Assembly (NCBI RefSeq): GCF_009905375.1
Contig: NW_027417196.1
Location: forward strand, 1-64,000
DNA length: 64,000 nucleotides
Reading direction: 5' to 3'
Source: Apium graveolens
Lineage: Eukaryota > Streptophyta > Magnoliopsida > Apiales > Apiaceae
Positions 2,471 to 53,663 of the stretch are shown here, one piece after another. The notes beneath the pieces are model-generated. The model ran no database searches. It was given only the letters and a program-made list of their open reading frames with translations, and was not told the DNA's origin. Position numbers and translations under genes: made by a program. Positions within the stretch are counted from its first letter, which is position 1, and each line of letters opens with the position of its first letter.

Positions 2471-5400
2471 TGTGACGACTGAGAATTTTGCGACGTAATT
2501 AAGTGAATAAAGTATGTGTTATGTGATGTGATTATAATTATGTGACTAAGTGATGATTATTTGTCTTATCTGTATACTAGAGTTTAGGAGCGTGGATAAA
2601 AAAAACGTTCCAATTTAAAGAGTCAGCTTAAAAGATAAGCTGCTGTCGGCTGTCGGGCTGTCAGGTAGAACGGAACCCGCCCTAATATGGAGTTAAAGAA
2701 TATAAAATATGAATTATGTGTGATTGAATGAAATGAATGAGTAAATAAAGTATTTCGTCCTAAGTGACGTGTTGATTGGTAAAGACGTTGAGAAGCGTAA
2801 TCGAAACGCTGAGCGTCGGGCCGTCAGGCTGAAGTGACCCGGTACGCGTAAAAGAGGATAAAGATTAAAGAGGGATAGATTCTATGATCAAACCTGAGTG
2901 GTTATGTGACTGTATATGTGTGATTGCTTGACTGAGTGCATGACTATGTGTTCTGTGTCAATTTTGTGAATTTTAAAGGAATTACGTGATTTAAATAAAG
3001 GTTTAATTAACCTTCGCGCATTTTTATAAAATCATTCGAGTAAGATAAAAACATGGGATTTGTTTTGTTATCTTCGTAATGGTCCTAGAGACTTTTTAAA
3101 AAATGATGAGTGAATTTGATAGTTGATCTTTGCATTTTTAAATTGATTTTATGTGAAAAATGTATTTATTAAAGCAAGTTTACGAAATTCATATAAAATC
3201 AACCGTTCACTCAAATTCTTATTATCAGTAATGGATAAAAAGCTAATTTCGAGACCTACGTGTTAAAATTGTCATTTTCGATAATTCTCGACTTTCCGAG
3301 AAAGATATATTTTATATTTGAATTTTGTTGCATTCGAGTAAAAAGAGAAAGAATGTGTGAGCCAAAAAAGAATTAATAGATTACCATTTTGCCCTTGCTT
3401 TGGTGGAGTATAAAATCACCCCTCCCTCCCTCATTTTCTTTTTCTTTCCCGAGCACTCACTCTTTCCTCTCTTCTCTTTTCTTTCCTCTCTCTCTCGAAC
3501 ATTCTCTCTCACTCTCTCTCGGCTCTCTCATCTCTCACCTCTCTCACTTGCATGCAACCATCAAAACATACTCAAACATAAATATATTGCTACCTTTAGT
3601 TGTTATTTTCGGTATACACTTCGATTCCTATCTGCATTTAAGTAATTATAAAAGTTTTGTTGGTTAATCACTATGGTAGTGTTCAAGAAAAACCATTTCT
3701 TGATGCATAACCATGAGAGTGAATTCAAGCGTGTTTGGAGGTCATAAACTCGAGAAGAGACCCGTTATGGGCTCTCTCAAGTTCGGCCACCATCGGCCAT
3801 GATCCAAAGGAGAGCCGGTGGATTTTCCATGGTGTGATCATTTTATTTTAGCTTTGCATGTTATGATTTCTTGAAGATTTGAAAAAGGGTTTTGTTTCTT
3901 TGATGAAAATCGAGTGTGTGCTTGATAAAATAATTCCATTGATTGTGTTAGGAAGTAAATGAATGTGTGCAAATGATTGTTGCTTAGAAAATCAAAAATT
4001 AAGGTTTGCATGTGGATTTTTGCTTCGGCTTTTTTGCTAATTAAGAAGAGGAATTTGATTTTGTGAGATAATCTTGGTAAATACTAAGTTTATATGGCAT
4101 AAAAGTGATTGCATGTTAGTTTTAAAGTAGATCAAGATATGCATGTCATTGATTTGTCCTTGAGATGTAAATTTGAGTTTTTGCCGAATGGAAATTTAGT
4201 TAAAAAGGGGTTAATATGATGAATAAGTGGATGCATGTTGTGATTTATGTGAAATTCGATTGTGTTAAGGAATTTAGTTGGTTTACTTGATGAAAATGAA
4301 GTGTTTGATATATGATGAGTTGAAATTGAATTGCATGCAAGCATGTATGTATGATTTGGTTCGAATTATTGTTGATAAAATGAGATGTTAGTTTAATTGT
4401 TAGATTATGCTATGATTAAGGATGCATGGTGTAATTTTGAGAAATTTGATTGTATATATATAATTATGGTTCAAATTTTTATGATTAAAAGAAAGGGGAA
4501 TGATTCTTTAATAGTTTTTGAATGAGTTATGTGGTTATATGATTTAAAGAACGTATTTGATTGATTTTGTGTGATAAGGCCGAATAGGCCATAGGGATTA
4601 AGAGTCAAAAACTTGATTTTGATGATCACAAGGATGATTGAAAGTGTATAAATGAATATCTATAAATTTGTTTGCTTAATTGTGGTATGTGGTTCGAATT
4701 AAGGAACAAAGGAAAAAGGGAACTAAGTTGAATGATTTTAAAAGATATAAGTGATAGTTATGGACGTAAATGTTTGGTTGTGAATAAATCTTGTACTCGT
4801 ACGAGTTATATTAGTGTGATTTGAGAAATAGCCAAGGTTAAGCGAGTACGCTTTGATTGTTAAGTATATAAGGGTATAAAAGCTACGAGAAAGGGATATG
4901 CTATATGCTATGTGCTATGTGCTTATATGTATAAGCTATATTCGTATACTCGAGTCAAAGATATAATCGAGTTATCGTATAGAGTGATCGTTCCGGGAAC
5001 GAGAGTTGAGAATCTGATTAAGATTTTGGTTTTATTGTAGATTCGGAGCGTGAGGGCATTCAGGCTAGGAAAGGAAAGGATTTACTAGGTGGCAGTAGTT
5101 CAACCTTCAGGAAAGCAAATTCAGGCAAGTAACTCTGATTACTTGTGTAAATGGTTATAAAGAGAATGTTGTTCATACCATGTAGAGTATTGAACTGTTT
5201 AAGTGTGAAACCCTCGTTTTATGATACCCTGATATTGATTTGAAGTACCCTTGTTCTTGATAACCTGTTATTGATAAGCCTATTGATTTCACCCTTTGAT
5301 AATCTATCTTTTCTGTTCAAGTTACCTATTAAGCCATGAATTATATTGAACCTTTTAATTATCTTTGTTAACCCTGTTTAATGATATCCTGTTTCTCTTG

Positions 5401-6651
5401 ATCACCCTATTGATCCCTAAATCAATGCTGATCCTTCTAATTTAGTGCTTTGTTATCCTTGATAAAGAATTCTTATGAATTGTTCCTTGTGTATCTTTGA
5501 ATCACTCCCTGAACTTTGTTTCCTTAAAATCTGAATTAAGAATGAGTTTCGACTTGAAAAAGTTCGAATGATTTCAAATGCTTGGTAATGATAAAATGAA
5601 TTTTTGAGAACCTACTTGTTTTTCCGACTCAAGGTTTTCCAAATTAATTCCTGATGGATTGGATTGGGACGTAAGAGGCTAGTGGGACTAGTCCAGTCAT
5701 GGTAAGAGGCTAGCAGGGCTAGTCCAACTTAAGGCTGAAATTATGCCGAATGGTACCTTAAAGACCGGAATGGAGGTCGATACGGGCTGATCACCCGTAT
5801 ATAATGAAATGGAAATATAAAGTGATACAATCAAGGGTTCTAATTGATTATTTAAAAGGGAACTGAAACTTTTGTTCAGTAAATTGATTTTGAAAATGAA
5901 AATGGTTTATATTGCCTTGAAAAGAGTTGATTATGTTATTGTATAGCTTAAAGCTCGAGAACCCTGATTCTTGAAATTGTTGATCATATGATTGATTCTA
6001 TATCTTGAAATACTGTTGCTTTCCTCTATCAAAAGATCTATTTTGATCCTACAATGATTTGTGATGAATGTCGGCTTTCGTCCTGCTTTGAGCCTTGTTC
6101 CTTGAAAGCCCCATACTATTCTTCAGAAACCTTTCCTTAACCCAAAAAGATGGAAATCTGCCACCTAGATTAAATAAAGTAGAATGCCCTAGTTTGTTAA
6201 AGCATATTGTGATTTGATATTGTAGAACTGCTATATAGTTACTTGCTGAGTTTTATATTCATTTGTTTTGTCTTAATCTAACCATGGCAGTTAAGCAAGA
6301 AGATGGCCAGGCTTAGGCGTACTGCTCGTAAGAGCGTACCTGGTGGTTCCTACCGTGTTGAGGGCTTCCGGTTGCCAGAGCAGGTAGTGGTAATTATGAG
6401 TGAGCTCGCGCCTAGAAAGAAGTTTATAAAGATACAATGGGTTATCTGTCGGTTCCCATCCGGAATCGATGTTGGTTATCTAATAATGTTTTGGGTTTGT
6501 AAGTTATATTTTATGATTGGTAGTTGTGATCTTGTCTCATACTTTATCCTGTTGATCCTGTTAGTAGTTAATCGGGGTTTATGCATATTTAATTATTAGA
6601 TTAGAGGTGTGTGAGTCCTCATTTCCTAACCCCGAGATTGAGGGCGTCACA
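2471..6651 (+). repeat. E1 5' LTR
   Basis: The LTR runs from TGTGACGACT to GAGGGCGTCACA and is followed by the primer-binding site. At 4181 bp it is long even for Tekay elements. U3 contains a twice-used phrase around GTCGGGC(T/C)GTCAGG (near 2650 and 2816). A TATA box at 3409 is followed by a long CT-rich tract, so U3 is probably about 970 bp and R/U5 more than 3 kb. A two-copy repeat around GTAAGAGGCTAG (about 5669-5730) forms a GC-richer island. The last 350 bases carry the H3-like exon. Confidence 0.93.
3409..3416 (+). promoter_or_regulatory. Candidate TATA box of E1 LTR promoter
   Basis: TATAAAAT is followed after a few bases by about 130 bases of CT-rich sequence (CTCTCTC runs, 3420-3550), typical of plant core promoters and 5' leaders. 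The same arrangement recurs at 13418-13425 in the 3' LTR. The inferred transcript start lies near 3440. Confidence 0.6.
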
Positions 6652-7385
6652 AGTTGGTATCAGAGCTACAGGATCTAGTCCCTGAGATAAGTTAGGATTT
6701 AAAAAGGGGTATTTTGGGAATACATCTATATCGCGAGAGAGTTCGACTCATATATAGTTGAGTTAGACTATTAGGTATAGTCTAAGGAAAGTGTTTATTG
6801 GTAAAGCGGAAACTAGAGTTAGGGTGTGAGTTAGCTGGAAGCTTTATTTAACCTTAACATTGTTTTTTGGTTGTTTTGTGTTTCTCTCAGGATCCTAGTA
6901 GTGGTAGTGACTCAGACTCAGAGATTAGTTTGACTGGTAACCCTGTAGACCCCGTTCCACCCTCTCCAGAGGAGCCTGTGTATGTTAGTTCAGACCCAGA
7001 GGAGGACCCTTCTGAGAGTAGTGAGATCCCCATGCAGATTTCACCCCTGAGGCCTGATTCAGAGACCCCTGCCCCTGAGCCAGAGTCCGAGATGCCTAAG
7101 ACTGTTTCTGTCAGTGTAGGTGGCAAGTTAGCCCAGGATCGAGACTTTGTGTACTCCCGCATTCCTGAGTTGGGAGCTTTGGTGGATAGACTAGCCAGAG
7201 AGTCTAGGCAGAGTGCTTCTGTTATGGATGATGAGTGGCGAGTTCGGGTGAAGATGGTGGAGCAGGTTGCCAGGAGGAGATTGGATGAGGGACCATCCAC
7301 TAGTGATGCTGATGCTGAGGCCCGGAGGCTGCATAAGATCATTCGCTGGATGTTGGTTGTGTTGAGAGAGATTCTAGATGGTTAG
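6303..7385 (+). CDS. Two-exon leader gene with H3-tail-like N-terminus and acidic exon 2
   Basis: Exon 1 (6303-6383, 27 codons) lies in the LTR and begins MARLRRTARKSVPGG. Compared with the histone H3 tail (A1 R2 ... T6 A7 R8 K9 S10), residues 1, 2 and 6-10 after the Met are identical. It ends RLPEQ at CAG|GTAGTG. Exon 2 (6891-7385) follows a good acceptor (TGTTTCTCTCAG|GAT) with a branch-like CTTAAC 33 bases upstream. Both junctions are phase 0. Exon 2 is open for 164 codons but has no ATG before 7032 and an in-frame stop at 6855, so it needs an upstream exon. Its first half is rich in Ser, Pro, Asp and Glu; its second half looks helical. The predicted 507 bp intron is T-rich and contains the LTR end and primer site. 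If unspliced, exon 1 would run to 6599 as 98 residues with a hydrophobic tail. The product is a 191-residue protein of unknown function; the splicing is inferred. Confidence 0.6.
6655..6666 (+). other. E1 primer-binding site
   Basis: TGGTATCAGAGC lies three bases after the LTR end. It is complementary to the 3' end of plant initiator tRNA-Met, the usual primer for these elements. It falls within the predicted intron of the leader gene. Confidence 0.9.
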
Positions 7386-7934: not shown

Positions 7935-9066
7935 ATGGCCAACTCACCAGATCACCAAGAAGAAGAAATTCCCACCCAAGACCCAGAAATAAACCCAGAA
8001 ACCACTATGATGAGTAGACTTGCTCAGCTTTTGCAACAACCTGTGGCCCCTAAAGTTGGAAATTTCAAGCACTTTCAATCTGTTCATCCCCTAGAGTTCT
8101 TAGGTTTTCCAGACCCAATTAAAGCTCAGTCATGGTTAAGAGAGATGGAAAAAGCCTTTGAGTTAGCAGAAGTTAAGGATGATAAGAAAGCTCAGTATGC
8201 AAGTTATTATTTGAAAAGATGAAGCAAATTTCTGGTGGGAGTCTTCTAAGGCGTTGTTGGAAGGCAAAGACTTATCTTGGGATAAGTTTATCGAGATGTT
8301 TCTGGAAAAGTATTTGCCAAGCTATATGCAAGATCAATTGGAGATGAAATTTCTGGATCTTAGGCAGGAAGAAATGTCGGTAGCAGAATATGAAGTGAAG
8401 TTTTCAGAATTGTCAAGGTTCGTACCTGAGTACGTGAATACGGAAGCGAAGAAGGATAAGAGGTTCCAGCAGGGACTCAAGTCGTGGATTAGAAGTCAAA
8501 TAGCAATGTTGGAGATTAAGAACTATGCTGCATTGGTTCAAAAAGCAATGATAATGGAAGGTGAGCGGGAAGCTGCTCGAAGAGAAAATGAAGGAAGAAA
8601 GAGGAAGTTTGAAAGCTCTGAGCAAGAGCAAGGAAGCTCAAAGTTCAGAGGGAAGTTTGGGAAGAATGGTGGAGGTCAGAACCAAAAGTTCCAGAAGTTT
8701 AGACCCGGGAATGGAGCTCAGAAGAACCGTTTCCAGAAAGCTGGTCAATCGGGGAAGGATAGCAGACCTCAGATGCAAGAATGCAGGAACTGTGGAAAGA
8801 GACACCCGGGGAGGTGTAATAAGCTGGATATAACGTGTTTTAAGTGCAACCAGAAGGGGCATTATTCTTCAGAATGTCCAAGTGGAGTAAGGAAGCCTGA
8901 TTTAGCTTGTTTCAAGTGTGACAAAGTGGGCCATATGGCCAGGAATTGTAAGGAGCCTGTACAGAAGGCTAATGTTCTCAGAATTGCTGGACCGTTGTCT
9001 CTCCCAGCACCATCAGCTCAACCCAGAGCTAGAACCTTTAACATGACAATGAAAGATGCGGTGTAA
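7935..9066 (+). pseudogene. gag: E1 gag, broken
   Basis: The Gag capsid/nucleocapsid region starts at ATG 7935 (MANSPDHQ). The retrotransposon gag core runs up to about 8560. A basic linker follows, then zinc knuckles with cysteines from about 8785: one CX2CX3HX3C and two CX2CX4HX4C. Alignment with the T2 Gag shows a +1 frameshift near 8217 (after YYLK) and a TAA at 9064 where T2 has a Gln codon, so Gag is cut from protease. Gag would assemble the virus-like particle and bind RNA. In T2 the same region is continuous with pol, so one Gag-Pol frame is ancestral. Confidence 0.88.
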
Positions 9067-9069
9067 GAG

Positions 9070-12000
9070 GTGGACGTGGTAGCAGGTATGCTTGTTATAA
9101 ACTCAGTAGAAGTAAAAGTTTTGATAGATTCTGGAGCAACTAGATCTTTTATCTCTGAAAGTATTCTTGATAACTTAAATTGTGTTGCGTACCCTCTAGA
9201 GCCTAATTTGATTATAGAGGTAGAAAATCAAGAGAAAGTTGTTGTTAATAAGATTTGTCCTGATTGTGATGTGTCTATAGAAGGTCGGCACTTTTCTGCT
9301 GACTTAATTCCTTTTAAGTTAGGAGAATTTGAGGCTATACTAGGAATGGATTGGTTGTCAAACCATGAGGCGCAAATAGAATGTAAAAGTAAGAAGGTGA
9401 AGTTAAGAACCAAGGATGGTGAGGAAGTGATATTTAAAGGAAAGAGGCAAGAGAAGAAATTTCTAACGGCTATTAAGGCAAGAAGATTAATACGTCAAGG
9501 ATGCGAAGTTTATTTGGCTCATGTCATGGACGTGGAGAAAGAATCTGTAAAGATCGACGATATTCCAGTTGTAAGAGATTTCCCGGATGTGTTTCCTGAT
9601 GAATTGCCTGGACTACCTCCAGACAGAGAGATCGAGTTTACGATTGACTTGGCTCCTGGTACGGAACCATTGTCGAAAGCTCCCTATCGCATGGCGCCGG
9701 TCGAGATGAAGGAATTGGCAGCTCAGTTGCAAGAGTTGTTGGACAAAGGAGTGATCTGACCGAGTGTATCCCCGTGGGGCGCACCGGTGTTATTTATAAA
9801 GAAAAAGGATGGAAGTATGCGGTTGTGCATCGATTACCGTGAGCTGAATAAGTTGACGATCAAGAATAAGTACCCCCTACCGCGGATCGATGACTTGTTT
9901 GACCAGTTAAAAGGAGCCTCGTGTTTCTCAAAGATTGATTTAAGATCTGGGTATCATCAGTTAAAGATTAAAGCGGAAGATATACCCAAGACAGCGTTCC
10001 GAATGAGATACGGACATTATGAGTTTTTGGTAATGGCATTTGGCTTGAAAAATGCGCTAGCTGCATTTATGGATCTTATGAACAGAGTATTCAAGCAGTA
10101 TTTGGATAAGTTCGTTATTGTGTTTATCGACGATATACTGATTTACTCCAAGATGGAAGAAGATCATAAGGAGCATTTGAGAATTTCCTTGGAAATTCTG
10201 CGAAAAGAGAAACTGTATGCGAAGTTTTCAAAGTGTGAATTTTGGCTAAAGGAAGTGCAATTTCTCGGTCATGTAGTTAATAAAGAAGGAATTAAAGTGG
10301 ACCCAGCCAAGATAGAAGCTGTAATGAATTGGGGAAGACCCAAGACTCCGACGGAAGTCAGAAGTTTTCTAGGATTGGCCGGATACTATAGAAGATTTGT
10401 GCAAGATTTCTCAAAGATTGTTGTTCCGTTGACAAAGTTGACGAGAAAGAACAAGAAGTTTGTTTGGACAGAAAAGTGTGAGGATAGTTTTCAAGAGTTA
10501 AAGAAGAGATAGGTAACCGCCCCAGTGTTGGTATTACCAGATGACAAAGGAGAATTTGTGATATTCAGTGATGCTTCATATAAAGGACTTGGATGCGTAT
10601 TAATGCAACACGGAAAGGTAATAGCATATGCGTCAAGGCAACTCAAGCCACACGAGCAGAAGTATCCAACGCACGATTTGGAATTGGTAGCAATTGTGTT
10701 TGCTCTTAAGATTTGGAGGCATTATTTGTACGGGGAAAAATGCGAGATTTATACGGATCATAAAAGTTTAAAATATATCTTTACTCAGAAAGAATTGAAT
10801 ATGCGACAAAGAAGGTGGTTGGAATTGATCAAAGATTATGATTGTGCGATAAACTATCATCCTGGAAAGGCAAATGTGGTAGCTGACGCTTTAAGTCGAA
10901 AAGAAAGGTTGAATATGTTAACATCATCGGAAGAATTAATTAAAGACTTTGAAAAGATGGAAATAGAGGTGCAAACTCCGGAATGTGGAGGTGAAGCTAT
11001 ATATGCAATGCTGTTTCAACCTGAAATTTTGGAAAAGATTCGATGTTGTCAAGAGCAAGTGATGAGTCGCGAAAAGGATAAGTTGACGGGAGAAGAAATT
11101 AAAGCTCAAAAGGATGGAAAAGGAATATACCGTGTTAACTCACGCATTTGGAGACCTAATGTGGTGGAACTAAAGCACGAGATTTTGCAAGAAGCGCATA
11201 ACTCAAGATTTTCAATTCACCCTGGGAATACAAAGATGTACCAGGATTTAAAAGAAAATTATTGGTGGCCAAACATGAAAAAGGAAATTGCGGAATGGAT
11301 AATTAAATGTTATACGTGCCAAAGAGTTAAAGCGGAACATCAAAGGCCAAGCGGATTGCTTCAGACACTGGACATACCCGAATGGAAATGAGAACATATA
11401 GCGATGGATTTCGCGGTAGGATTACCTAAAACCAAGTCAAATCACGATGCGATTTGGGTGGTAATCAATCGGTTGACAAAGTCAGCACATTTCTTGCCGA
11501 TAAACGAAAGGTTTTCATTAAAGAGGTTGGTCAAATTATATCTGGATGAGATCGTGATGCGTCATGGAGTTCCTGTATCTATCGTGTCTGATAGAGATCC
11601 AAGGTTTAATTCAAGGTTTTGGTGACAATTCCATGATCATTTGGGAACGAAACTGAAAATGAGTACGGCATATCATCCGCAGACAGACGGACAAAGTGAA
11701 AGGACAATTCAGACGATTGAAGATATGTTGCGAACCTGTGTAATAGATTTCAAAGGAAATTGGGACAATCATTTGCCCTTAATTGAGTTTTTCCTACAAC
11801 AACAGTTATCACGCGAGTATTGGCATGCCGCCTTGTGAAGCATTGTACGGAAGAAAGTGTAGATCCCCTACTTATTGGGACGAAGTTGGTGAGTGCAAGT
11901 TAATTGGCCCAGAGCTAGTTCAGCAAACGAAGGAAAAGGTTGAATTGATTCAAAAGAGATTAATTGCAGCTCAAGATCGACAGGCAAAGTACGCAAATCA

Positions 12001-12444
12001 AGAACGGAAAGATGTGCAATTCGAAACTGGAGACAAAGTCTTGTTAAATATATCTCCTTGAAAAGGTTTAACTCGTTTCGAAAAGAAAGGAAAGCTAGTC
12101 CAAGGTATATTGGACCATTTGAAGTATTGCGACAAGTTGGGAAAGTGGCATATGAATTGGCGCTGCCGCCGCAAATGCAACATCTGCACAATGTGTTTCA
12201 TGTATCTCTCCTGAAGAAGTATAATGCTGATGCGAGCCATGTGATCGAGTTGGAACCAGTGGAAATCCAACCAGATTTGTCCTATGTCGAACAACCAGTG
12301 CGAATTTTGGATCGAAAAGAAAGGACGCTTAGAAATAAAGTTGTACCTCCAGTTAGAGTGTTGTGGAGAAATCCATTAGTCGAAGAATCGACTTGGGAAT
12401 TAGAAAGCGAAATGAAAGAAAAGTATCCCCATCTATTTGCTTAG
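9070..12444 (+). pseudogene. pol: E1 pol (protease-RT-RNase H-integrase-chromodomain), broken
   Basis: Protease shows [10 protein letters not shown] near 9119. RT has the palm motif FIDD near 10125, RNase H has SDAS near 10568, and integrase has its HHCC zinc site (about 11196-11320) and core domain. A chromodomain-like tail around [10 protein letters not shown] ends at LFA. In-frame stops lie at 9757 (TGA), 10510 (TAG), 11389 (TGA), 11623 (TGA) and 12059 (TGA). Frameshifts lie near 11790 and 12095. Compared with T2, most stops replace Arg CGA or Trp TGG codons, which fits C-to-T change at methylated cytosines. The encoded enzymes would have copied and integrated the element; this copy cannot. 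Confidence 0.92.
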
Positions 12445-12484: not shown

Positions 12485-15400
12485 TGTGACGACTGAGAAT
12501 TTTGCGACGTAATTAAGTGAATAAAGTATGTGTTATGTGATGTGATTATAATTATGTGACTAAGTGATGATTATTTGTCTTATCTGTATACTAGAGTTTA
12601 GGAGCGTGGATAAAAAAATACGTTCCAATTTAAAGAGTCAGCTTAAAAGATAAGTTGTGGTGTCGGGCCGTCAGGTAGAACGGAACCCGCCCTAATATGG
12701 AGTTAAAGAATATAAAATACGAATTATGTGTGATTGAATGAAATGAATGAGTAAATAAAGTATTTCGTCCTAAGTGACGTGTTGATTGGTAAAGACGTTG
12801 AGAAGCGTAATCGAAACGCTGAGCGTCGGGCCGTCAGGCTGAACGTGACCCGGTACGCGTAAAAGAGGATAAAGATTAAAGAGGGATAGATTCTATGATC
12901 AGACATGAGTCGTTATGTGACTGTATATGTGTGATTGCTTGACTGAGTGCATGACTATGTGTTATGTGTCATTTTTTTAAATTTTAAAGGAATTACGTGA
13001 TTTAAATAAAGGTTTAATTAACCTTCGCGCATTTTTATAAAATCATTCGAGTAAGATAAAAACATGGGATTTTTTTTGTTATCTTCGTAATGGTCCTAGA
13101 GACTTTTTAAAAAATGATGAGTGAATTTGATAGTTGATCTTTGCATTTTAAATTGATTTTATGTGAAAAATGTATTTATTAAAGCAAGTTTGTGATATTC
13201 ATATAAAATCAACCGTTCGCTCAAATTCTTATTATGAGTAATGGATAAAACCTAATTTCGAGACCTACGTGTTAAAATTGTCATTTTCGATAATTCTCGA
13301 CGTTTCGAGAGAGATATATTTTATATTTGAATTTTGTTGCATTCGAGTAAAGAGAGAAAGAATGTGTGAGCCAAAAAGGAATTAATAGATTACCATTTTA
13401 TCCTTGCTTTGGTGGAGTATAAAATCACCCCTCCCTCCCCCATTTTCTTTTTCTTTCCCGAGCACTCACTCTTTCCTCTCTTCTCTTTTCTTTCCTCTCT
13501 CTCTCGAACACTCTCTCTCACTCTCTCTCGGCTCTCTCATCTCTCACCTCTCTCACTTGCATGCAACCATCAAAACATACTCAAACACAAAGATATTGCT
13601 ACCTTTAGTTGTTACTTTCGGTATACACTTCGATTCATATTTGCATGTAAGTAATTATAAAATTTTTGTTGGTTAATCACTATGGTAGTGTTCAAGAAAA
13701 ACCATTTCTTGATGCATAACCATGAGAGTGAATTCAAGCATGTTTGGAGGTCATAAACTCGAGAAGAGACCCGTTTTGGGCTCTCTCAAGTTCGGCCACC
13801 ACCGGCCATGATCCAAAGGAGAGCCGGTGGATTTTCCATGGTGTGATCATTTGATTTTAACTTTGCATGTTATGATTTCTTGAAGATTTGAAAAAGGGTT
13901 TTGTTTCTTTGATGAAAATCGAGTGTGTGCTTGATAAAATGATTCCATTGATTGTGTTAGGAAGTAAATGAATGTTTGCAAATGATTGTTGCTTAGAAAA
14001 TAAAAAATTAAGGTTTGTATGTGGATTTTTGCTTCGGCTTTTTTGCTAATTAAGAAGAGGAATTTGATTTTTGTAAGATAATCTTGGTAAATACTAAGTT
14101 TATATGGCATAAAAGTGATTGCATGTTAGTTTTAAAGAAGATCAAGATATGCATGTCATTGATTTGTCCTTGAGATGTAAATTTGAGTTTTTGCCGAATG
14201 GGAATTTAGTTAAAAAAGGGTTAATTTGATGAATAAGTGGATGCATGTTGTGATTTAGGTGAAATTCGATTGTGTTAAGGAATTTAGTTGGTTTACTTGA
14301 TGAAAATGAAGTGTTTGATATAATGATGAGTTGAAATTGAATTGCATGCAAGCATGTATGTATGATTTGGTTTGAATTATTGTTGATAAAATGAGATATT
14401 AGTTTAATTGTTGGATTATGCTATGATTAAGGATGCATGGTGTAATTTTGAGAAATTTGATTGTATATATATATATAATTATGGTTCGAATTTTTATGAT
14501 TAAAAGAAAGGGGAATGCTTCTTTAATGGTTTTTGAATGAGTTATGTGGTTATATGATTTAAAGTACGTATTTGATTGATTTTGTGTGATAAGGCCAAAT
14601 AGGCCATAGGGATTAAGAGCCAAAAACTTGATTTTGATGATCACAAGGATGATTGAAAGTGTATAAATGAATATCTATGAATTTGTTTGCTTAATTGTAG
14701 TATGTGGTTCGAATTAAGGAACAAAGGAAAAAGGGAACTAAGTTGAATGATTTTAAAAGATATAAGTGATAGTTATGGACGTAAATGTTTGGTTATGAAT
14801 AAATCTTGTACTCGTATGAGTTATATTAGTGTGATTTGAGAAATAGCCAAGGTTAAGCGAGTACGCTTTGATCGTTAAGTATATAAGGGTATAAAATCTA
14901 CGAGAAAGGGATATGCTATATGCTATGTGCTATGTGCTTATATGTATAAGCTATATTCGTATACTCGAGTCAAAGATATAATCGAGTTATCGTATAGAGT
15001 GATCGTTCCGGGAACGAGAGTTGAGAATCTGATTAAGATTTTGGTTTTATTGTAGATTCGGAGTGTGAGGGCATTCAGGCTAGGAAAGGAAAGGATTTAC
15101 TAGGTGGCAGTAGTTCAACCTTTAGGAAAGCAAATTCAGGCAAGTAACTCTGATTACTTGTGTAAATGGTTATAAAGAGAATGTTGTTCATACCATGTAG
15201 AGTATTGAACTGTTTAAGTATGAAACCCTCATTTTATGAAACCCTGATATTGATTTGATTTACCCTTGTTCTTGATAACCTGTTATTGATAAGCCTATTG
15301 ATTTCACCCTTTGATAATCTATCTTTTCTGTTCAAGTTACCTATTAAGCCATGAATTATATTGAACCTTTTAATTATCTTTGTTAACCCTGTTCAATGAT

Positions 15401-16664
15401 ATCCTATTTCTCTTGATCACCCTATTGATCCCTAAATCAATGATGATCCTTCTAATTTAGTGCTTTGTTATCCTTGATACAGAATTCTTATGAATTGTTC
15501 CTTGTGTATCTTTGAATCACTCCCTGAACTTTGTTTCCTTAAAATCTGAATTAAGAATGAGTTTCGACTTGAAAAAGTCCGAATGATTTCAAATGCTTGG
15601 TAATGATAAAATGAATTTTTGAGAACCTACTTGTTTTTCCAACTCAAGGTTTTCCAAATAAATTCCTGATGGATTGGATTGGGACGTAAGAGGCTAGTGG
15701 GACTAGTCCAGTCATGGTAAGAGGCTAGCAGGGCTAGTCCAACAAGGCTGAAATTATGTCGAATGGTACCTTAAAGACCGGAATGGAGGTCGATACGGGC
15801 TGATCACCCGTATATAATAAAATGGAAATATAAAGTTATCCAATCAAGGGTTCTAATTGATTATTTAAAAGGGAACTGAAACTTTTGTTCAGTAAATTGA
15901 TTTTGAAAATGAAAATGGTTTATACTGCCTTGAAAAGAGTTGATTATGTTATTGTGGAGCTTAAAGCTCGAGAACCCTGATTCTTGAAATTGTTGATCAT
16001 ATGATTGATTCTATATCTTGAAATATTGTTGCCTTCCTCTATCAAAAGATCTATTTTGATCCTACAATGATTTGTGATGAATGTCGGCTTTCGTCCTGCT
16101 TTGAGCCTTGTTCCTTGAAAGCCCCATACTATTCTTCAGAAACCTTTCCTTAACCCAAAAAGATGGAAATCTGCCACCTAGATTAAATAAAGTAGAATGC
16201 CCTAGTTTGTTAAAGCATATTGTGATTTGATATTGTAGAACTGCTATATAGTTACTTGTTGAGTTTTATATTCATTTGTTTTGTCTTAATCTAACCATGG
16301 CAGTTAAGCAAGAAGATGGCCAGGCTTAGGCGCACTGCTCGTAAGAGTGTACCTGGTGGTTCCTACCGTGTTGAGGGCTTCCGGTTGCCAGAGCAGGTAG
16401 TGGTAATCATGAGTGAGCTCGCGCCTAGAAAGATGTGTATAAAGATACAATGGATTATCTGTCGGTTCCCAGCCGGAATCGATGTTGGTTATCTAATCAT
16501 ATTTTGGGTTTGTAAGTTATATTTTATGATTGGTAGTTGTGATCTTGTCTCATACTTTATCCTGTTGATCCTGTTAGTAGTTTATTGGGGTTTATGCATA
16601 TTTAATTATTAGATTATAGGTGTGTGAGTCCTCATTTCCTAACCCCGAGATTGAGGGCGTCACA
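12485..16664 (+). repeat. E1 3' LTR
   Basis: This 4180 bp LTR is collinear with the 5' LTR and ends GGCGTCACA followed by the TAACA duplication. Differences are scattered substitutions and small indels; they are denser in the first 500 bp, including a short deletion near 12655. It carries the same TATA box (13418) and H3-like ORF (16316). Confidence 0.93.
16316..16612 (+). CDS. 3' LTR copy of the H3-tail-like exon
   Basis: The 3' LTR copy keeps MARLRRTARKSVPGG and the whole 27-codon exon up to RLPEQ (16316-16396). The two base differences from the 5' copy inside the exon are both synonymous. Past the GT at 16397 several differences change residues. In this position there is no exon 2 to join, so the copy is probably silent; unspliced it would read 98 residues to 16612. 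LTR copies diverge neutrally after insertion, so two silent differences alone prove little. Confidence 0.5.
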   Translation: MARLRRTARKSVPGGSYRVEGFRLPEQVVVIMSELAPRKMCIKIQWIICRFPAGIDVGYLIIFWVCKLYFMIGSCDLVSYFILLILLVVYWGLCIFNY

Positions 16665-16669
16665 TAACA
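16665..16669. repeat. Target-site duplication of E1, right copy (TAACA)
   Basis: Second copy of the five bases found at 2466-2470. It marks where the T4 LTR resumes. Confidence 0.9.
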
Positions 16670-38841: not shown

Positions 38842-38952
38842 CTGATCTGGAAATTCAAAGCTCTCTTCGGGAATAGGAAGGAACACTCTTGGTATAAGAG
38901 GGTCCCGCTGCTTGACTCGCTTCTTGACTATGCGGGTCCTGATGGGTTTCAT
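38842..38952 (-). CDS. T2 leader-gene exon 1 (basic N-terminus)
   Basis: On the minus strand, after CAGTTAAGGTAGAG, an ATG opens 37 codons (MKPIRTRIVKKRVKQRD...) ending FEFPDQ at CAG|GTGTAG. E1 exon 1 has the same preceding phrase (CAGTTAAGCAAGAAG) and the same ending (FRLPEQ at CAG|GTAGTG), both in phase 0. I therefore take it as the homologous exon. It is strongly basic, like a nuclear localisation stretch, but without the H3 TARKS match. Unspliced, translation would stop after one more codon. Exon 2 is missing because that part of T2 was lost. In the 5' LTR the exon is cut at 53662. Confidence 0.5.
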
Positions 38953-41722
38953 TCTCTACCTTAACTGTAAAATAATAGGAGTGACAATAAAAGAAATGAG
39001 CCAAAATTGCTCAACAAGTCTGCAACAATATATATATATATATATTATAAAGAGAGAGAAATAAAGAGAAATAAATGAACCAATAAGCTGCTAGTTTGAA
39101 CAACCATCTGTATCTGTATATGATAATAATTTGCCAATGATGGCGAGTGCCAAATGAACAAGACTGGAAACAAGAACCAACATATGCACTATAATCTGCT
39201 GATCAGTCAGAATATAGTGCGGATCTATACCCAACTGCATAGACCCAACCAACATAAGGAGTACTCAGGCAACTATGGCCTATTAATTAATGGTCTGGGA
39301 AAAACCCAGCCTTTATAGTAACCATCCAGTCCAAGGCTGAACATCCGGAACAATCGGTATGCTATTCATATATCCCAACACCAGGATATACCAGAATATA
39401 TGTAACAAGGGTAAAGGAATTGAAATATGAACAGGGAATTCAATAAATTGGGTAAATCAAGAATTGAAATGAAATGGAACAAGTGATAATAAATGGGTAA
39501 CAGTGTATATGAACAATAATTATCAAAAAGAATTGATACGATAGAAAGGAAATATAAATCACTATTCTGAATTTAGAATAGGGGAAAAACTTGCCTTGCG
39601 CGTACTTAACCTGGTTTAACTTACTGCCTTCTGACCCTAGCTTGCTCTGCCTTGCTAACACTGAACAAATCATGGAAAGATAGGTGTTTAGATAATTTTA
39701 CTACATACGTGTATCTTTAATTGATATCACGCAACCTTATCAGTCTACCCATACGTTTCTATCTGACTCGCATATATATACATATATTTACACAACACAT
39801 TTATGCACATAATCACATATAACACGTAACACGTAAAGCACACAATTAATTTCTAGATTTATAATTATTTTTAGAATCAATTCTAGGCTTATACCTGCAT
39901 TACTAGTCTTATCTGATTTTATTATAAATTTTCGGGATTTATTCGGCTCAATTATATCCCTACTAGGACCTACGAACTATCAGTTATCACCAAACCACTC
40001 TTTTTCAGAATAAATTATAACTTACAACTATTTTTATTGGATTCGTCTCATTTTTCTGAGTCTAGGGGTCTTCGTTTCACTTAAATCGGACTAACAGTTG
40101 AATTGTTATGAATTAAACACTGATAATTCAATTTATTATTCAATATAGATAATTATTACAACCTTTTAAATCCTAAAATAATTTTTAAATAATTATTTAA
40201 TAAAAATCAAAGTCAAAAATAATTTTTTTATAATTTTTGGAGTTAAAATGAAGAAGTTACGATTTATTAAAAATTATGTGATTAATTATCGAAATAATTA
40301 ATCACTTTTTAAATATTGAATAAATAAATAACTAATAAATAATTAATAATTGCTTATTTAATAATCTTAAAATAATAAATCTCTAATTATCAGGATTAAT
40401 CACAATTTATTATAATATTTATAACTTATCGATATTTATTCGATTAGATCGATTATTTACAAATAATCAATCGATTTTATTAACGGATACGCTATTTATC
40501 GAATATCTACTATGTGCTCGAATTATAATCTAACTCAACGATTAATTACTCGTATAAATACGAGCTACTCGCAATCCTCATATAATTATCGAACTTATTA
40601 CATTATTACTGAAACTTATACGATTCGTTAATCAATTAATTATCGGTATTTAATTATACGATACAAATAATCACTACAATATTATTCGAATAACTATCGC
40701 TCGAATAATAATTCTCATTATCGAATTATTACTCGTAATAATAACTAATTATCGAATTATTAATCATATTATTTAATTATTTTTAATCCTTATTTATTAA
40801 TTAATTACCTAATTATTAATTAATTACCTAATTATTAATTAATTAGATAACTAATAAATAATTAGATAAATAATTAAATAATTAATTAAATAATTAAATT
40901 CGAATTTATATATTAATAAAATAATTTAGAAATTAATAATACTATTTTTCAGAATTTAGAACTAATTTTTAATTAATTATTAGAATTTTTAAAATCTGAT
41001 TTTGATTTACTAAAATATAAATAAATAATTAATAAATCAAAAACACAATTCAGGGAATTGGTTTCAGGTTTTGGGGATCAAACCCGGGTCGTTTCCGGGT
41101 TGCAAACCGGGTCGAACCCGGGTCGCGAAGAACACTCCTGGCTGCCCAGAAACCCGACGCCGGCGGGGATTTTCCGGTGAAAATCCGGCGAACCAAAACA
41201 ACGTCCAAACACCACAGTTCCAAGCTGGTTTTGCTTCGTTCTTCACCGAAAACACCACAGGGACGTCCTCCTCTTTCATTCGTCCTTCCTCCCCGTCGAA
41301 CCAGACCGGCGAACACGAACAGCGGCGGCGTCGTCGTTTTCCGCCAATGCTAAAACGGACACCAAATCGAGTGAAACCGGTGCCAAACGACTCCCTATTC
41401 GACGATCTACATCCTCATGGCAACGAAATCATCAAACAATCAACCAGAAACGAAACCCGAATTCAAGATTAAAACCCGAAAACACGAAATTAAAATCACT
41501 TAATCAAACAATAAAAATAGTTGCATAATCAGAAACTACGATTCACCAGCTTCAATTTGACTACTTACATGCTCGATTTGGACTCCGGAATCACCTTCAA
41601 AATCGCGATTGATTATGCTGCCCTGTTCTTCACAGAAACCCTAACCCTAATTCCTTTTTCTTTTTATTTTTATTTTCTGATTTTTAATTATAATTAACTG
41701 ATTTAATTAATAGTAATTCAGG

Positions 41723-41730
41723 TATTTATA
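41723..41730 (-). promoter_or_regulatory. Candidate TATA box of T2 LTR, with telobox downstream
   Basis: Reverse-strand TATAAATA about 590 bases into the LTR. The sense strand then has TTAGGGTTAGGGTTTCTG at about 41655-41638, a telobox-type element common near plant transcription starts. Confidence 0.45.
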
Positions 41731-42322
41731 TTTATGAAAATAATACCCCTAAGTAAAATTAAGGGTCTAATTACACTCCTAATAAAAATATTTGGCCCCA
41801 ATTTTTATAATTTTTGGGTATTAATAATGAATTTTTAAATATCCAATAAATACAAAATAAATACTAAAAATTCCCAAAAATTGTGAAAAATACAAAAATA
41901 CAAAGAAAAATGATATATGATAATTTCATAATCATATAAAAATAAAAATGTGATTTTTGTGGGGTTTTTGGTACCCGAAGGGGTCCGGAAAAGTCGTTTT
42001 TCGCGAAAAAGGTCAATTTGTAAAACGTCTAGGGGTTCAGAATAGCGATACGGTATAGGGCATTTTTGGCAAAATAGGGCCAATGATTTTGTTTGAAATA
42101 CGGGCTTTTAAAACATAGTTTTGAGCTGTACAGGTTTTGATATAATATATATAACTGACGATAGAACGCTCAATAAATATCCAAAACACGTTTGGATCAA
42201 AACAACCAACATATAACACATAGCAGTTAGGGTTCAACGACTTAACACATTTAATCACATAATAATACACATAATTTATTATTATTATAATATAATACAA
42301 GCATAATTCCTCGGTCGTTACA

Positions 42323-42363: not shown

Positions 42364-45300
42364 TTATGCAAATAACTGAGGATACTTTTCTAGCATTTCA
42401 CTTTCAAGTTCCCAGGTTGATTCTTCAACCACTGGGTTTCTCCATAAAACTCTCACTAATGACACAGACTTATTTCTTAATACCCTCTCTTGCCTATCTA
42501 GAATTCTTATTGGCTGTTCTACATATGACAAATCTGCCTGAAGTTCTACTGGTTCATACTCTATTACATGCCTTGTATCAGGATTATACCTCTTAAGCAT
42601 AGATACATGAAATACGTTGTGAATGTGCTGCATATGGGGTGGTAGAGCTAACTTGTACGCAACCTTCCCAATTTTCTTCAAAATCTCAAATGGTCCAACG
42701 TATCGTGGCTTCAATTTCCCTTTATTGCCAAATCTGGTCAATCCTTTCCATGGCGATATTTTGAGCAATACGTGTTCTCCTTCCTGATAGTCCATATCCT
42801 TCCTGGCTTGGTTTGCATATCTGCTTTGTCTGTTTTGTGCTGCCTCGATTCGTTTTCGAATAAGATTAATCTTTTCTTTTGTCTGCTGAATTAATTCTGG
42901 ACCCAAAATCTTGCGTTCTCCAACTTCATCCCAGTGCACGGGTGATCTGCATTTCCTTCCATATAATGCTTCATACGGTGGCATTCCAATACTGGCGTGA
43001 TAGCTATTATTATAAGAAAATTCCACTAGGGGTAAATGTTCATCCCAACTGCCCTCAAAATCGATCGCACAAACTCGTAGCATGTCTTCAATCGTTTGAA
43101 TTGTCCTTTCACTTTGGCCGTCAGTTTGCGGATGATAAGCTGTACTCATATTCAACTTCGTTCCTAGACATTCTTGGAATTGTCTCCAAAATCTTGAATT
43201 GAAACGAGGATCTCGATCCGATTTAATTGATACTGGTACTCCATGACGCATCACAATTTCTTTGAGATACATGTGCACTAATTTGTCGAGCGAAAATCTT
43301 TCATTAATTGGTAGAAAATGTGCCGACTTCGTAAGTCTGTCAATGATTACCCATATCGCATCATGATTTGCCCTAGTCCTCGGTAGTCCTACCACAAAAT
43401 CCATCGCTAGATGTTCCCATTTCCATTCTGGAATGTCTAATGGTTGCAATAACCCACTCGGACATTGGTGTTCTGCTTTAACTCGCTGGCATGTGTAACA
43501 TTTACTCACCCATTCTGCTATCTCCTTCTTCATATTCGGCCACCAAAAGTTTTCCTTCAAATCGCGATACATTTTCGTGCTTCCTGGATGAATGGAATAC
43601 TTCGAATTGTGCGCATCTCGCATAATTTCTTCTTTTAATTCTGCCACGTTAGGGATCCAGATTCTTGACACAAAACGTAAAATTCCTTCATTATCTTTCT
43701 GAGTTGTAATCTCTTCTCCTGTTAAGTTGTCGTCTTGACTCATCACTTCTTCTTGACAACGGCGAATCTTTTCCAGCAATTCTGGTTGGAAAGTCATAGC
43801 GTAGATAGTTTCTGCAGATTCATTAGGAGTACGAATTTCGATTTCCAATTTGTCGAATTCCCTGGCCAATTCTTCGCATGAAGTCAACTGATTCAATCTT
43901 TCTTTTCTGCTTAGCGCATCTGCTACAACATTTGCTTTTCCTGGATGATAACTGATTGTAACATCGTAATCTTTAATCAATTCCAGCCATCGACGTTGTC
44001 GCATGTTTAGTTCCTTTTGCGTGAAGATATACTTCAGACTTTTATGATCCGTGTAGATTTCACATTTTTCACCGTACAGATAATGTCTCCAAAGCTTCAA
44101 TGCAAAAACAATTGCTGCCAATTCCAGATCATGCGTAGGATATTTCTGTTCATGAGGTTTAAGTTGTCTCGACGCATATGCAATGACGTTACCATGTTGC
44201 ATCAATACACATCCTAAACCACGATATGAAGCGTCACTGTAAATAACAAAATTTCCTTGCTCGTCTGGCAGTACTAATACTGGTGCCGTCACCAACCGAT
44301 TCTTCAACTCTTGAAAACTTTCTTCACACTTACTATTCCATTCGAACTTTTCACTTTGTCGAGTTAACTTGGTCAGCGGTGTAGCTATCTTCGCAAAATC
44401 TTTGACAAATCTTCGATAATATCCTGCCAAACCTAAGAAACTTCGAACCTCTGTCGGCGTCTTTGGTCTTTCCCAATTCAACACGGCTTCAATCTTTGCT
44501 GGATCAACTTGAATGCCTTCTCTGCTGATGATGTGCCCTAAAAACTGCACTTCTTTCAACCAAAATTCGCATTTGGAAAATTTTGCATAAAGCTGCTCCT
44601 TCCGTAATATTTCCAATGTCGTTCTTAATTGCGCTGCATGCTCTTCTTCCGTCTTTGAATAGATCAAAATGTCATCAATAAATATAATGATAAACTTATC
44701 CAAATACTTCTTGAATATTCGATTCATCAAATCCATAAACGCTGCAGGTGCATTCGTCAATCCAAAAGCAATCACAAGAAATTCATAGTGTCCGTATCTT
44801 GTTCTAAACGCTGTCTTTGGAATATCTTCGGCCTTGATCTTTAACTGATGATAGCCTGATCGTAAGTCAATTTTCGAAAACCATGCCGCTCCTTTTAGTT
44901 GATCAAATAAATCATCAATGCGAGGTAAAGGATATTTATTCTTGATAGTTAACTTGTTCAGCTCACGATAATCAATACACAGTCGCATACTACCATCCTT
45001 CTTTTTCACGAACAATACTGGCGCACCCCATGGGGATACACTTGGCCTTATAATTCCTTTGTCAAGAAGTTCTTGCAACTGCTTTGCTAATTCCCTCATT
45101 TCAACAGGTGCCATTCGATATGGAGCTTTCGAAATTGGTTCAGTCCCTGGCGTCAAGTCAATAGTGAATTCGATTTCTCGATCTGGTGGAAGTCCTGGTA
45201 ATTCATCCGGAAAAACATCAAGAAATTCACAAACTACAGGAATATCTTCAATCTTCAAATTTCCCTTATCAACATCCCGTACATAGGCTAAATAAGCTTG

Positions 45301-46917
45301 ACATCCTTGACGTAGCAATCTTCTCGTCTGCATTATTGATAGGAATTTCTGCTTTTGCTTCTCACCTTTAAATATTACCGTTTCATTTTCTTCAGTTTGC
45401 AATTTCACTCTCTTATTCGCACAGTCAATTTGAGCATTATTACTAGACAGCCAATCCATTCCTAAAATAATATCAAACTCCCCTAACCTAAAAGGTATCA
45501 AATCAACTGAAAAATGACATCTCCCTATCTCAATATCACAGCTCGGACATACTCGCTCTACTGCAACCTGATCATTATTTGCTAATTTTATGACTAACAC
45601 TTCATCCAACCACTGAATCTCACAATCTATCTTAGAGATAAAGGCTTCAGAAATAAAAGATCTAGTAGCTCCTGAATCAATCAATACTAAAGCATTTACG
45701 GAATTTACAGGAAGTGTACCTGCAATCACATTCGGACTCTGTACCGCTTCCTTCATTGACATGTTGAAAGTCCTTGCTCTGGGCTGATTTTGCTGTGGTA
45801 GTGGAGGTGGAGGTAATGCTAAAATTCTTGGAATACTGGCAGCCATTGCAATTCCTCTGCAGTCTTTGGCGATATGTCCTTTTTTCCCACATTGAAAACA
45901 AGTAACTTCTGCTTTTCCCATTGGACATTCTCCAGAATAGTGTCCCCTTTGCTTGCACTTGAAACACGTAACATTTAGCTTGTTGCAAACTCCTGTATGC
46001 TTTCTACCACACGTTCTGCAATCAGGTATAGGCGGTCGAATAAGCCTTTGCTGAGTTGGGGCAGGTAGTCGATTACCCATCCTCTGGTTGTTTTGTTCTG
46101 GTCTCCTAAAGTTTACTTTTCCTCGAGCTTGAAATCCCGGCCTTTTGTTGAAACGATTCTGAAATTTCCCTGGTCCTTTCTCTTTCTGAGCTGCTTCGCT
46201 TTCTCCCTCAATAATCATAGCCTTCTGAACAACAGCCGTATAAGTTGTCAATTCAAACACAGCTACCCTGCTACGCATCCATGGTTTTAGTCCTTGCTGA
46301 AATCTCTTGGCCCGCTTCTCGTCCGTATCCACCTGCTCTGGAACAAACCTTGCCAATTCAGTAAACTTAGTCTCATAATCCGCAACCGATAAGTTGTCTT
46401 GTTTCAGCTCCAGGAACTTGATCTCCATCTGGTTCTTCATAAAATGAGGAAAATATTTCTCCAAGAAAAGATCAGTGAATCTGTTCCAGGTCACCACACC
46501 TTCTTCCAAAGCTTTCTTCGATTCCCACCAGTAATTAGCTTCACCTTTTAGAAAATAGCTAGCGAAATCTGTCTTCTGCTCTTCCTCAACCTTTACCAAC
46601 GAAAAAGCCTTTTCCATCTCTTTCAGCCAAGCTCTCGCTTTCGTAGGATCTGTGGAACCCATAAATTCCGGTGGCTTCACCGACTGAAATTGCTTGAAAG
46701 TAGTCGTAGGTGCTGCTGGAGGTATTTGATGTCCTGGATGAGCGGCTTGCTGTAACATCTGTTGCTGGAACTGCTGTTGCTGCTGCTGCATTTATTGTTG
46801 CATCATCAACATCTGCTGTTGCATGAGATTAAACATCTGATCCATCTGTTTATTATTGTTTTGGCCATCGGTGTTTCCATTCGATGAGTCAGGCTGCGCT
46901 TTTCTCTTAGGTGCCAT
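42364..46917 (-). CDS. gag-pol: T2 gag-pol polyprotein, single in-frame stop
   Basis: The frame starts at ATG 46917 ([14 protein letters not shown]), reads 41 codons to a TAA at 46794-46792 in a Gln-rich stretch, and then runs on from an ATG at 46791 for 1475 codons to 42364. Residues of the 1475: gag core about 30-200; zinc knuckles at C258 (CX2CX3HX3C), C276 and C298; protease D372-S-G; RT with FIDD at 704-707; RNase H with D853, E890, D915, D958; integrase zinc site H1061, H1068, C1098, C1101; catalytic D1131, D1192, E1228; chromodomain-type tail about 1423-1475. All key residues are present. The only break is the early TAA, which could be bypassed by starting at the next Met. The product would assemble particles, reverse transcribe and integrate. 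Confidence 0.93.
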
Positions 46918-49850: not shown

Positions 49851-51292
49851 TTTGCTGAAATATATTCTTTATTTTATTAAAGAATAAGATGTCAATAATC
49901 AAACTTATTTTCGATTATTCAAATAAAGATAATACTTTCATATAAGTATAGCTTTGGTTAATTAAAACTCGTTTCAAGTATAAATTCTAATACTTCTACT
50001 TCAATTATTTTTATAAAGACTATTCTTTATGGGAATATTATTTAATTAATAATATTCAGATATTTTCTAATATTCTGGGGACTGATTTACTTCATTAAAT
50101 CAGCCTTACTCCAAACACTCTTTAAAGTGTTTTCGAGTCTTCAAAATGATTTTTAAAAGTCAGAGCGGATCCCAAAACTCATTTTTATATTTAAGATCTT
50201 CCTTTTTAAAGGGGATTTAAATACTCGCTCAAAACCTGGGGAATCCGGCTCTGTGGTGTATTTAATATTCGCAACGAGGTTGCAGATTTGGTAAATGAAT
50301 TGATTACTTGCCCAACGTTCGGGAAGTAAGCCCATCTCATTGAGTCGGCATAAGCGACAGGCCGGGGTACGGTCTATTATTGTGTAAGTGGCTGGGTGGC
50401 AGTCCATCAACGCGTGAGGGGCCGGGGTACGGTCTAGCGCGAGGTCCTAATGCGGCCAGGGTGATGACCGGTGAGGAATTCATCCATCTACAGTAGAAAA
50501 GGTTACTTATTGGTATCTTTGCCTGATCAGCGAGATATCGGGTTTATGCCAAAATTCTTTTCCTTTCCAAAATTCATTGGATGTTTCAAACTCTGTCCAT
50601 ACTTTGCATAACAGAGGTTCCAGGAAATGTTTAAAGGGATATATATATGTGGATATATATATATATCGGGGCTAAATAAAGTATCTCATAACTTTTTCAT
50701 TCAATAATATTTCAAAGATTGAATCTATTCAAGTCTTATCTTGTGGTCTCATCAGTGGGATGAACTTTTGAAACTGATTATAACTTGAATGGTGGTAGTT
50801 CAAGTAGTATTGGGAAAGATATAAGTATATTGGGGTATTTGGTAACCTCATCTTTTAAACTTATATCTAATTAATAATTGTCTTATGAATGACAAAGATT
50901 TTCAGAAAAACGTTGAGACAAGGTTAGATATATGAGATCACCTTGCAACGATATTTTTATACAGTTATACACTGGGATTTTGTGTATATTATGCATGGAA
51001 GAGGACTTCCAATATTTTGAAAAGTATATATGTATATATACTGAATATTTTGCGACTTCATCGCATTAAGATATCAAACTTGGTTCATTTCTTTTGACCA
51101 AGACTTTCATGAGTACTATGAGAAGGCTCATATACTAGTAAGTATATACTAGTAATTATCTTACACACGATAAAAGATTCTAGTAAGTATCCATTTAGAT
51201 ACTTATATTATTGTTATCACTATATATTATCTTGCGAGCTGTAAGGCTCACTCTTGCTTTATTTCTTCATCACACAACAACAGTTAGGAAAG

Positions 51293-53551: not shown

Positions 53552-53663
53552 ATGATAAATTATGAATCTAAGTTGTAAAAGTTATCAAGATTCGTTCTGA
53601 GGACACGAATCCAGAATGATAAATTATGAATCTAAGTTGTAAAAGTTATCAAGTTGTAAAAGT
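53552..53663 (+). repeat. Repeated filler sequence at the T3/T2 junction
   Basis: A 38 bp segment (ATGATAAATTATGAATCTAA...) at 53552-53589 recurs exactly at 53616-53653. Its part AAGTTGTAAAAGT (13 bp, 53634-53646) is repeated again at 53651-53663, right where T2 LTR sequence (GTCCCGCTG) begins. Confidence 0.88.

Follow-up and report, generated by a model that had tools for sequence, protein, structure and literature searches.

The 27-codon open frame close to the end of a gypsy-element LTR in celery (Apium graveolens) appears to be the first coding exon of a split 5'aORF accessory gene of Tekay-like chromoviruses, a reading that we favour with modest confidence. The element lies in the window analysed here, which comprises the first 64,000 nucleotides of contig NW_027417196.1 (NCBI RefSeq assembly GCF_009905375.1, forward strand), and the frame (exon b) is followed by an intron and by a second coding exon (exon c) ahead of gag (Table 1). 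Splice sites are conserved among genomic copies, annotated splice products join the exons, exon b is common to two element families and exon c carries a weak coding signal. An abundant split accessory gene whose product bears an N-terminal arm resembling the tail of histone H3 is probably real.

In the gene as proposed, the transcript would start inside the 4.2 kb LTR and would be spliced from exon a through exon b to exon c, which would take the LTR end and the PBS out of the RNA. With its PBS spliced out, the RNA would be a messenger rather than a template for reverse transcription. Its protein would open with a 27-residue basic N-terminal arm, continue through an acidic, disordered stretch and end in a helical C-terminal domain. 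The arm most likely serves in nuclear import and in binding to nucleic acid or chromatin, as part of a regulatory protein with a presumed nuclear role, in a logic comparable to that of the accessory proteins that retroviruses make from fully spliced RNA.

Element A and the predicted split gene

The LTRs of element A, about 4.2 kb long, begin and end TGTGAC..GTCACA. A 5-bp repeat at its flanks (TAACA at 2466-2470 and 16665-16669) is a putative target-site duplication, and the LTR divergence corresponds to an age of ~1.1 to 2.1 million years at assumed substitution rates. Pfam matches in the pieces of element A that were scanned comprise Retrotrans_gag, zf-CCHC, RVP_2, SH3_Tf2-1 and a weak Chromo match. 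An earlier sequence-only reading of this DNA had described a chromodomain-type tail on the integrase, and that tail is indeed where Pfam places its Chromo match, but at 21.2 bits the match falls below the curated cut-off of 25.1. Reverse transcriptase (RT) and integrase-core matches were scored in a second gypsy element, element B, the pol of which aligns with that of element A at 74% (inverted repeats I1 and I2). With its gypsy order of gag and pol and a C-terminal chromodomain, read partly by way of the element B pol, element A would be classed as a Tekay chromovirus, and the extra sense ORF between the 5' LTR and gag (exon c, 6891-7385, ahead of gag from 7935) is the arrangement that defines a 5'aORF. 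A plasmid search gave no match, and a search of viral contigs gave five pattern-matching stretches, none of them confirmed.

Table 1. Features of element A and of the homologous exon in element C (positions in the window; a slash marks a splice junction)
Feature	Position	Strand	Basis or detail
5' LTR, gypsy element A	2471-6651	+	self-BLAST, 97.2% identity to 12485-16664; termini, flanks
Exon a in LTR, probably 5' leader	5041-5128	+	TAG/ATTCGG ... TTCAGGCAA/GTAACT
Exon b in LTR	6291-6383	+	LSKK codons (TTAAGCAAGAAG), start codon 6303, 27 residues, donor CAG/GTAGTG, phase 0
Intron	6384-6890	+	takes out LTR end and PBS; junction EQ/DPSSG in P0018, P0023, P0028, P0031
PBS 12-mer, element A	6655-6666	–	just past 5' LTR
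Exon c between LTR and gag	6891-7385	+	164 codons + stop; acceptor TTTCTCTCAG/GATCCT
gag region, element A	7935-9066	+	two overlapping frames, the first ending at 8222
pol region, element A	9067-12444	+	several separate frames; integrase tail with group II-like chromodomain ~12295-12435
3' LTR, element A	12485-16664	+	97.2% identical to 5' LTR
Exon b copy in 3' LTR	16304-16396	+	BLAST, tblastn; same 27 residues
Homologous exon b, element C	51284-51379	+	CAG/TTAGGAAAG ATG (51293), MARLQQTQRKRVGSVPRLPDDVVAAIAAE; inferred donor GAG/GTAGAT

The coding part of exon b (6303-6383) lies 348 to 268 bases upstream of the end of the 5' LTR, with 6383 as the last base ahead of the splice donor, and the unspliced frame from 6303 stays open for 98 codons, through 6599. 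Its copy in the 3' LTR differs at two bases within the 27 codons, both changes being synonymous. Four residues, LSKK, stand immediately before the methionine in 9 of the 29 public proteins that contain exon b, where they are preceded by varying residues, and this places the acceptor before TTAAGCAAGAAG at 6290/6291. Exon a is known as the tblastn match of one of these proteins, P0018 (AgCh_013186), which reads ..FRQ at the exon a donor and continues with LSKKM. The exon a acceptor AG is present in 37/37 loci and the donor GT in 35/37 (the alignment held 38 loci, which by their coordinates fall at 32 distinct places, and 37 of the loci were above the score cut), in a tally whose 30 underlying copies, found by intron DNA, largely overlap the 69-copy set described below and are not an independent sample. 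Exon a suggests at least one intron within the LTR (5129-6290), and the start of transcription would lie further upstream.

In total, 36 distinct public proteins were found; the 27-residue block is present in 29, and the other seven have the second exon only. Exon b is joined directly and in phase to the ORF at 6891 in four of the block-bearing proteins, namely P0018, P0023 (LOC141682795 isoform X3), P0028 (LOC141700179) and P0031; as modelled, ..CCAGAGCAG runs into GATCCTAGTAG at junction 6383/6891. By tally, nine further proteins leave LTR sequence directly after residue 27 and sixteen read on. A V follows residue 27 in P0017, P0021, P0032 and P0036, which makes the exact junction ambiguous there. 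These splice products are gene models, and those with AgCh_ names may be partly ab initio. All species-named relatives in the protein searches come from celery; the first search returned 13 source-named relatives, all from celery, and six others on ENA contigs of 524 to 1,165 bases.

Among the celery models, P0017, P0019, P0020, P0021 and P0032-P0036 carry unrelated sequence right after exon b residue 27, which in P0019 is a ribosomal L29-domain protein (PF00831), and P0037, an Arf-domain model, includes a few residues past the exon b donor. Models of this kind possibly represent LTR-driven first exons, or else annotation artefacts. The words MNSGEP and PSNEGTT, shared upstream by P0014, P0020 and P0038, are absent from the window.

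Exon c encodes an acidic, Ser/Pro-rich stretch (net charge -14 over its first 60 residues) followed by a predicted helical region. The spliced form is represented by P0023, a protein of 191 aa in a cluster of 9 sequences, in which a basic tail leads into an acidic stretch rich in Ser and Pro and the C-terminus is predicted to be helical. Its AlphaFold model, computed from a 10-row alignment (A2; mean pLDDT 63.7, pTM 0.45), gives residues 1-52 a pLDDT under 50, leaves most of residues 1-100 at low confidence and predicts helices at 103-131, 137-159 and 165-190. A fold search of P0023 against PDB and BFVD returned 0 matches at E<=0.001, and no Pfam domain was found in exon b or P0023. The segment LPEQVVVIMSEL, which we take to resemble the start of an F-box, was considered and set aside, as ten proteins gave no F-box match at E<=10 in a search whose HMMER filters drop most weak matches. 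The pattern LPxxVV, which has no Pfam support as an F-box, occurs near the end of exon b in both families (6372-6389 and 51344-51361, both on the + strand), and in family A its VV codons are the splice donor itself.

Conservation of the exons within and between families

The window contains a diverged second LTR family, element C, with an exon of the MARLQQTQRKRV type located 397 bases upstream of another PBS and preceded by an acceptor like that of family A. Exon b peptides of families A and C align with a local score of 45 (BLOSUM62, Met fixed) that was reached by 0/5000 shuffles. Their homology rests on this shuffle test. BLASTP at default settings gives no alignment of the two peptides; the two LTR ends likewise show no DNA match at E<=1e-3. 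The first 12 residues have M, A, R, L, T, R, K and V in common, and the codons of 5 of these 8 residues differ synonymously. Family C has at least 150 genome matches in which all 40 aa are identical (150 scored of 21,510 first-look candidates). Of ten family C copies examined, four have a PBS; L102 among them has an acidic ORF, and L104, L105 and L108 have a different internal region that carries RNase H-like pol fragments. Past the PBS of L102, the one copy from which family C splicing is inferred, a candidate phase-0 acceptor (TGTAG/GCG) precedes a 228-codon ORF that is acidic and Pro-rich, turns basic towards its C-terminus and gives no alignment with exon c of family A. Taken together, the family C exon, its PBS and the L102 ORF suggest that the design of an LTR exon with a basic MAR tail, an intron over the PBS and an acidic ORF exists in both families, and that the H3K9 core does not.

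Element B (gypsy, - strand; 38902-42322, 53662-57076 and 42364-46791) has LTRs of 3.4 kb that are 99.2% identical, and its gag-pol frame runs for 1475 codons without interruption. Between the gag and the 5' LTR of element B sit the LTR end and PBS of element C. No such exon was found among ATG ORFs of at least 20 aa near the element B LTR end, which may be cut by an insertion.

Conservation within family A, where 150 places were scored of 9,452 first-look genome candidates for exon b, was followed in 115 copies. These consist of 69 copies (L001-L068 and the 3' LTR copy) from those 150 places and 46 subfamily copies from 150 scored in a second scan. Selection of both sets relied on protein similarity, a criterion that enriches for intact frames and treats exon b and intron codons alike. 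The ATG is kept in 115/115 copies, the donor GT in 110/115, the exact motif TARKS in 96/115 and RK in 107/115. In the 69-copy set alone, TARKS is found in 62, ARKS in 65, RK in 68 and the MAR start in 55 copies, and the 46 subfamily copies have TARKS in 34. Where exon c was also followed, in 25 sampled copies, the acceptor AG is present in 22 and at least 150 codons are open in 15, and 13 copies combine both splice sites with an open exon b and at least 150 open codons of exon c. The sequence-only reading had asked for a conserved ORF in related elements, and one is found in these copies, chosen as they were by protein similarity. It had also asked that the frame be broken less often than its neighbours, and this it is not: exon b has 6 stops in 2,990 codons (in six of the 115 copies, five of them at codon 27), as against 9 in 4,140 in the adjacent intron codons 28-63 (p 1.0). 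Insertions that decay after landing would show such stops anyway, so the parity of stops neither proves nor excludes function.

Changes were then assigned to tree branches. The trees use 204-495 bases from closely similar copies, among them LTR pairs that belong to one element, and parsimony counts from them are rough. On the 115-copy tree, internal and terminal changes stand at 26:163 in exon b compared with 93:206 in the 36 intron codons that follow (p 1e-5), and at 1:25 in the TARKS codons compared with the same intron codons (p 0.0025). Synonymous changes (S) in exon b are depleted internally as well (7:55 vs 38:70 in the intron, p 6e-4), and the codon-level check proposed in the sequence-only reading gives no signal of nonsynonymous (N) versus synonymous change on internal branches (19 N : 7 S vs 55 N : 38 S in the intron, p 0.25). 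Counts for the 69 copies are 11 N : 1 S internally in exon b vs 38 N : 10 S in the intron, with a pairwise pN/pS of 0.87 (0.37-1.96) for exon b. The synonymous depletion together with the undistinguished N:S ratio thus indicates a sequence conserved in the lineages that spread, without proof that its amino acids are the reason, and the synonymous depletion could reflect constraint at the RNA level.

Exon c behaves differently in its own frame than in the other two. With 33 unique sequences, internal branches carry 31 N : 26 S and no stops, compared with 181 N or stop : 78 S on terminal branches (p 0.029), while the +1 frame gives p 0.88 and the +2 frame is reversed (p 0.042). Pairwise pN/pS is 0.51 in frame (bootstrap 0.35-0.77) vs 0.64 and 1.06 in the other two frames. 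These values point weakly to a frame-specific coding constraint on exon c.

These results bear on the strongest alternative, in which exon b persists chiefly for its part in splicing or in the leader RNA and both its open frame and its H3-like appearance are incidental. The joint depletion of synonymous and nonsynonymous changes on internal branches is what such an RNA module would leave, as are stops no rarer than in the adjacent intron codons and the continuation of 9/29 exon b gene models into unrelated sequence past residue 27. We nevertheless consider it unlikely, given that eight of the first 12 residues are held in common by families A and C despite five synonymously different codons, and that exon b joins in phase 0 a frame of 164 codons that itself shows a weak coding signal.

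Resemblance to the histone H3 tail

The tail of histone H3 reads MARTKQTARKS. The peptide encoded at 6303-6383 (+), MARLRRTARKSVPGGSYRVEGFRLPEQ, is identical to it at 8 of 11 residues in register, and so the H3-like peptide claimed in the sequence-only reading is encoded where that reading placed it. As a matter of sequence, the resemblance is real. A scan of 1,210 open ATG peptides in the window (11 residues, both strands) gave a score of 8 for two peptides only, which are the two LTR copies, and a score of 7 for one further peptide, that of element C at 51293 (7/11). None of 100 simulated windows (first-order Markov chain) reached a score of 8, and two peptides in them reached 7. About 1e-4 score-8 matches are expected per window, and permutation of residues 2-15 (400,000 trials) gave matches of at least 7/10 at a frequency of 1e-5, both figures leaving uncounted the other famous motifs that a reader might notice. 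Searching the 27-mer against PDB chains with phmmer gave no match at E<=10, so that the resemblance is one of a short motif and not of database-detectable homology, and homology to H3 genes was accordingly dropped. The sequence-only reading had treated the peptide as an ORF in its own right. It does appear to be more than a chance ORF, but the gene models place it at the start of a spliced accessory protein and do not give it as a free small protein.

A more ambitious proposal is that the arm works as an H3 mimic. After removal of the methionine, ARLRRTARKS would present an H3K9-like site that could occupy, or be methylated by, SUVH-type methyltransferases or be bound by H3K9me readers, and it might in this way counter silencing of the element or steer an element protein to heterochromatin. 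The arm does match H3 around an N-terminal modifiable lysine, above chance for the window; TARKS and RK persist in most family-A copies, with a single internal change in the TARKS codons; M, A, R, T, R and K of the H3 match recur in register in family C; and H3-like automethylated motifs exist in G9a and GLP (PMC9768651). The core motif is not kept across the homologous exons, as family C retains MARLxxTxRKxV, yet the TARKS of H3 and of family A is TQRKR there. In addition, T3, K4 and Q5 of H3 are replaced in the arm; PMC6318295 describes the plant H3K9me2 reader ADCP1 as contacting R2, K4 and K9me2, not A7, R8 or S10, and HP1-type chromodomains as using Q5-T6-A7-R8-K9-S10.

The sequence-only reading had also suggested that the element's own integrase might bind the tail. 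In a hand alignment, the element A chromodomain keeps the equivalent of W45 and has E and P at the equivalents of Y24 and Y48, residues that would assign it to group II and that make canonical reading by it unlikely. Group II chromodomains are described as having no Y24 and usually no Y48, and a partner of the plant members had not yet been found when PMC3350952 was written. Because of the family C motif, the missing T3, K4 and Q5 and the group II-like chromodomain, mimicry is kept as a rival that is quite unlikely, and the lack of an N-versus-S signal in exon b and of any paper on such a mimic among the literature matches listed, as far as their partial texts extend, also goes against it. A mimic role for the arm, as judged from sequence comparison, is moderately disfavoured, and the suggestion of the sequence-only reading to that effect finds no support. 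About as unlikely is a compound version in which a spliced nuclear protein with an H3-mimic N-terminus and an intact H3K9 core would draw off H3K9 methylation, or its readers, as a decoy, with TQRKR in family C a derived or escaped form.

The least probable explanation, that a basic N-terminus in functionless LTR sequence merely happens to look like H3, would fit the lack of detectable homology to PDB histones, the loss of A7 and S10 in family C, the likelihood of some match when many famous motifs are scanned for and the intron-like stop frequency, but is countered by the expectation of 1e-4 matches per window, the conserved splice sites and the presence of the exon in two families.

Known accessory genes and the meaning of a probable exon within the LTR

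The split accessory gene that we favour resembles, by description, the 5'aORFs of the Tekay clade (sunflower Tekay 13-2; rice Retrosat2 ORF0, RIRE3 and RIRE8; maize and sorghum elements), each an extra sense ORF between the 5' LTR and gag of a chromovirus. In sunflower, a 5'aORF is present in 500/523 group-2-like Tekay elements and has no amino-acid similarity to those of grasses, and the Tekay 13-2 protein is predicted to be nuclear, mostly disordered and Pro-rich with three helices (PMC11728184), a profile of amino-acid bias, disorder and helices that the predicted celery product shares. Retrosat2 has ORF0 upstream of gag-pol and LTRs over 3.2 kb (PMC3485330), and the celery LTRs are likewise long. 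Unlike the Tekay-clade 5'aORFs as described, the celery gene as modelled is split, with its start codon and first 27 codons inside the LTR. The words "intron" and "histone" are absent from the main texts of PMC11728184 and PMC3485330, and "splic" turns up a single time in PMC3485330 and nowhere in PMC11728184. Among the literature matches listed, in the portions available, there is neither an H3-like tail in a plant retrotransposon nor a 5'aORF with a first exon in the LTR.

Introns that allow an element to make another protein or its whole polyprotein are described for barley Bagy2 (env-like) and pea Ogre in PMC7264820 and PMC6317226; unlike these, the predicted celery intron covers both the LTR end and the PBS, and the gene that it belongs to is a 5'aORF. 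As with the H3K9 mimics of G9a and GLP, a motif resembles histone H3, but those motifs are reported as methylated and HP1-bound in PMC9768651, whereas the celery peptide is known from sequence. By analogy only, a transposon-encoded accessory protein is also found in the VANC anti-silencing proteins of VANDAL DNA transposons, which act on silencing (PMC12844716).

Beside the known 5'aORFs, what is new is probably the split gene and a conserved N-terminal arm encoded within the LTR. The chromatin idea about this arm can be reduced to a 15-residue peptide, and if it were true, an H3-tail decoy would help very abundant elements to escape silencing. With thousands of first-look candidate sites (150 scored per family), exon b is in addition a mobile first exon, joined in some gene models to other sequences. 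As the first coding exon lies inside the LTR, searches that begin past the LTR miss it, and the annotation of 5'aORFs must change.
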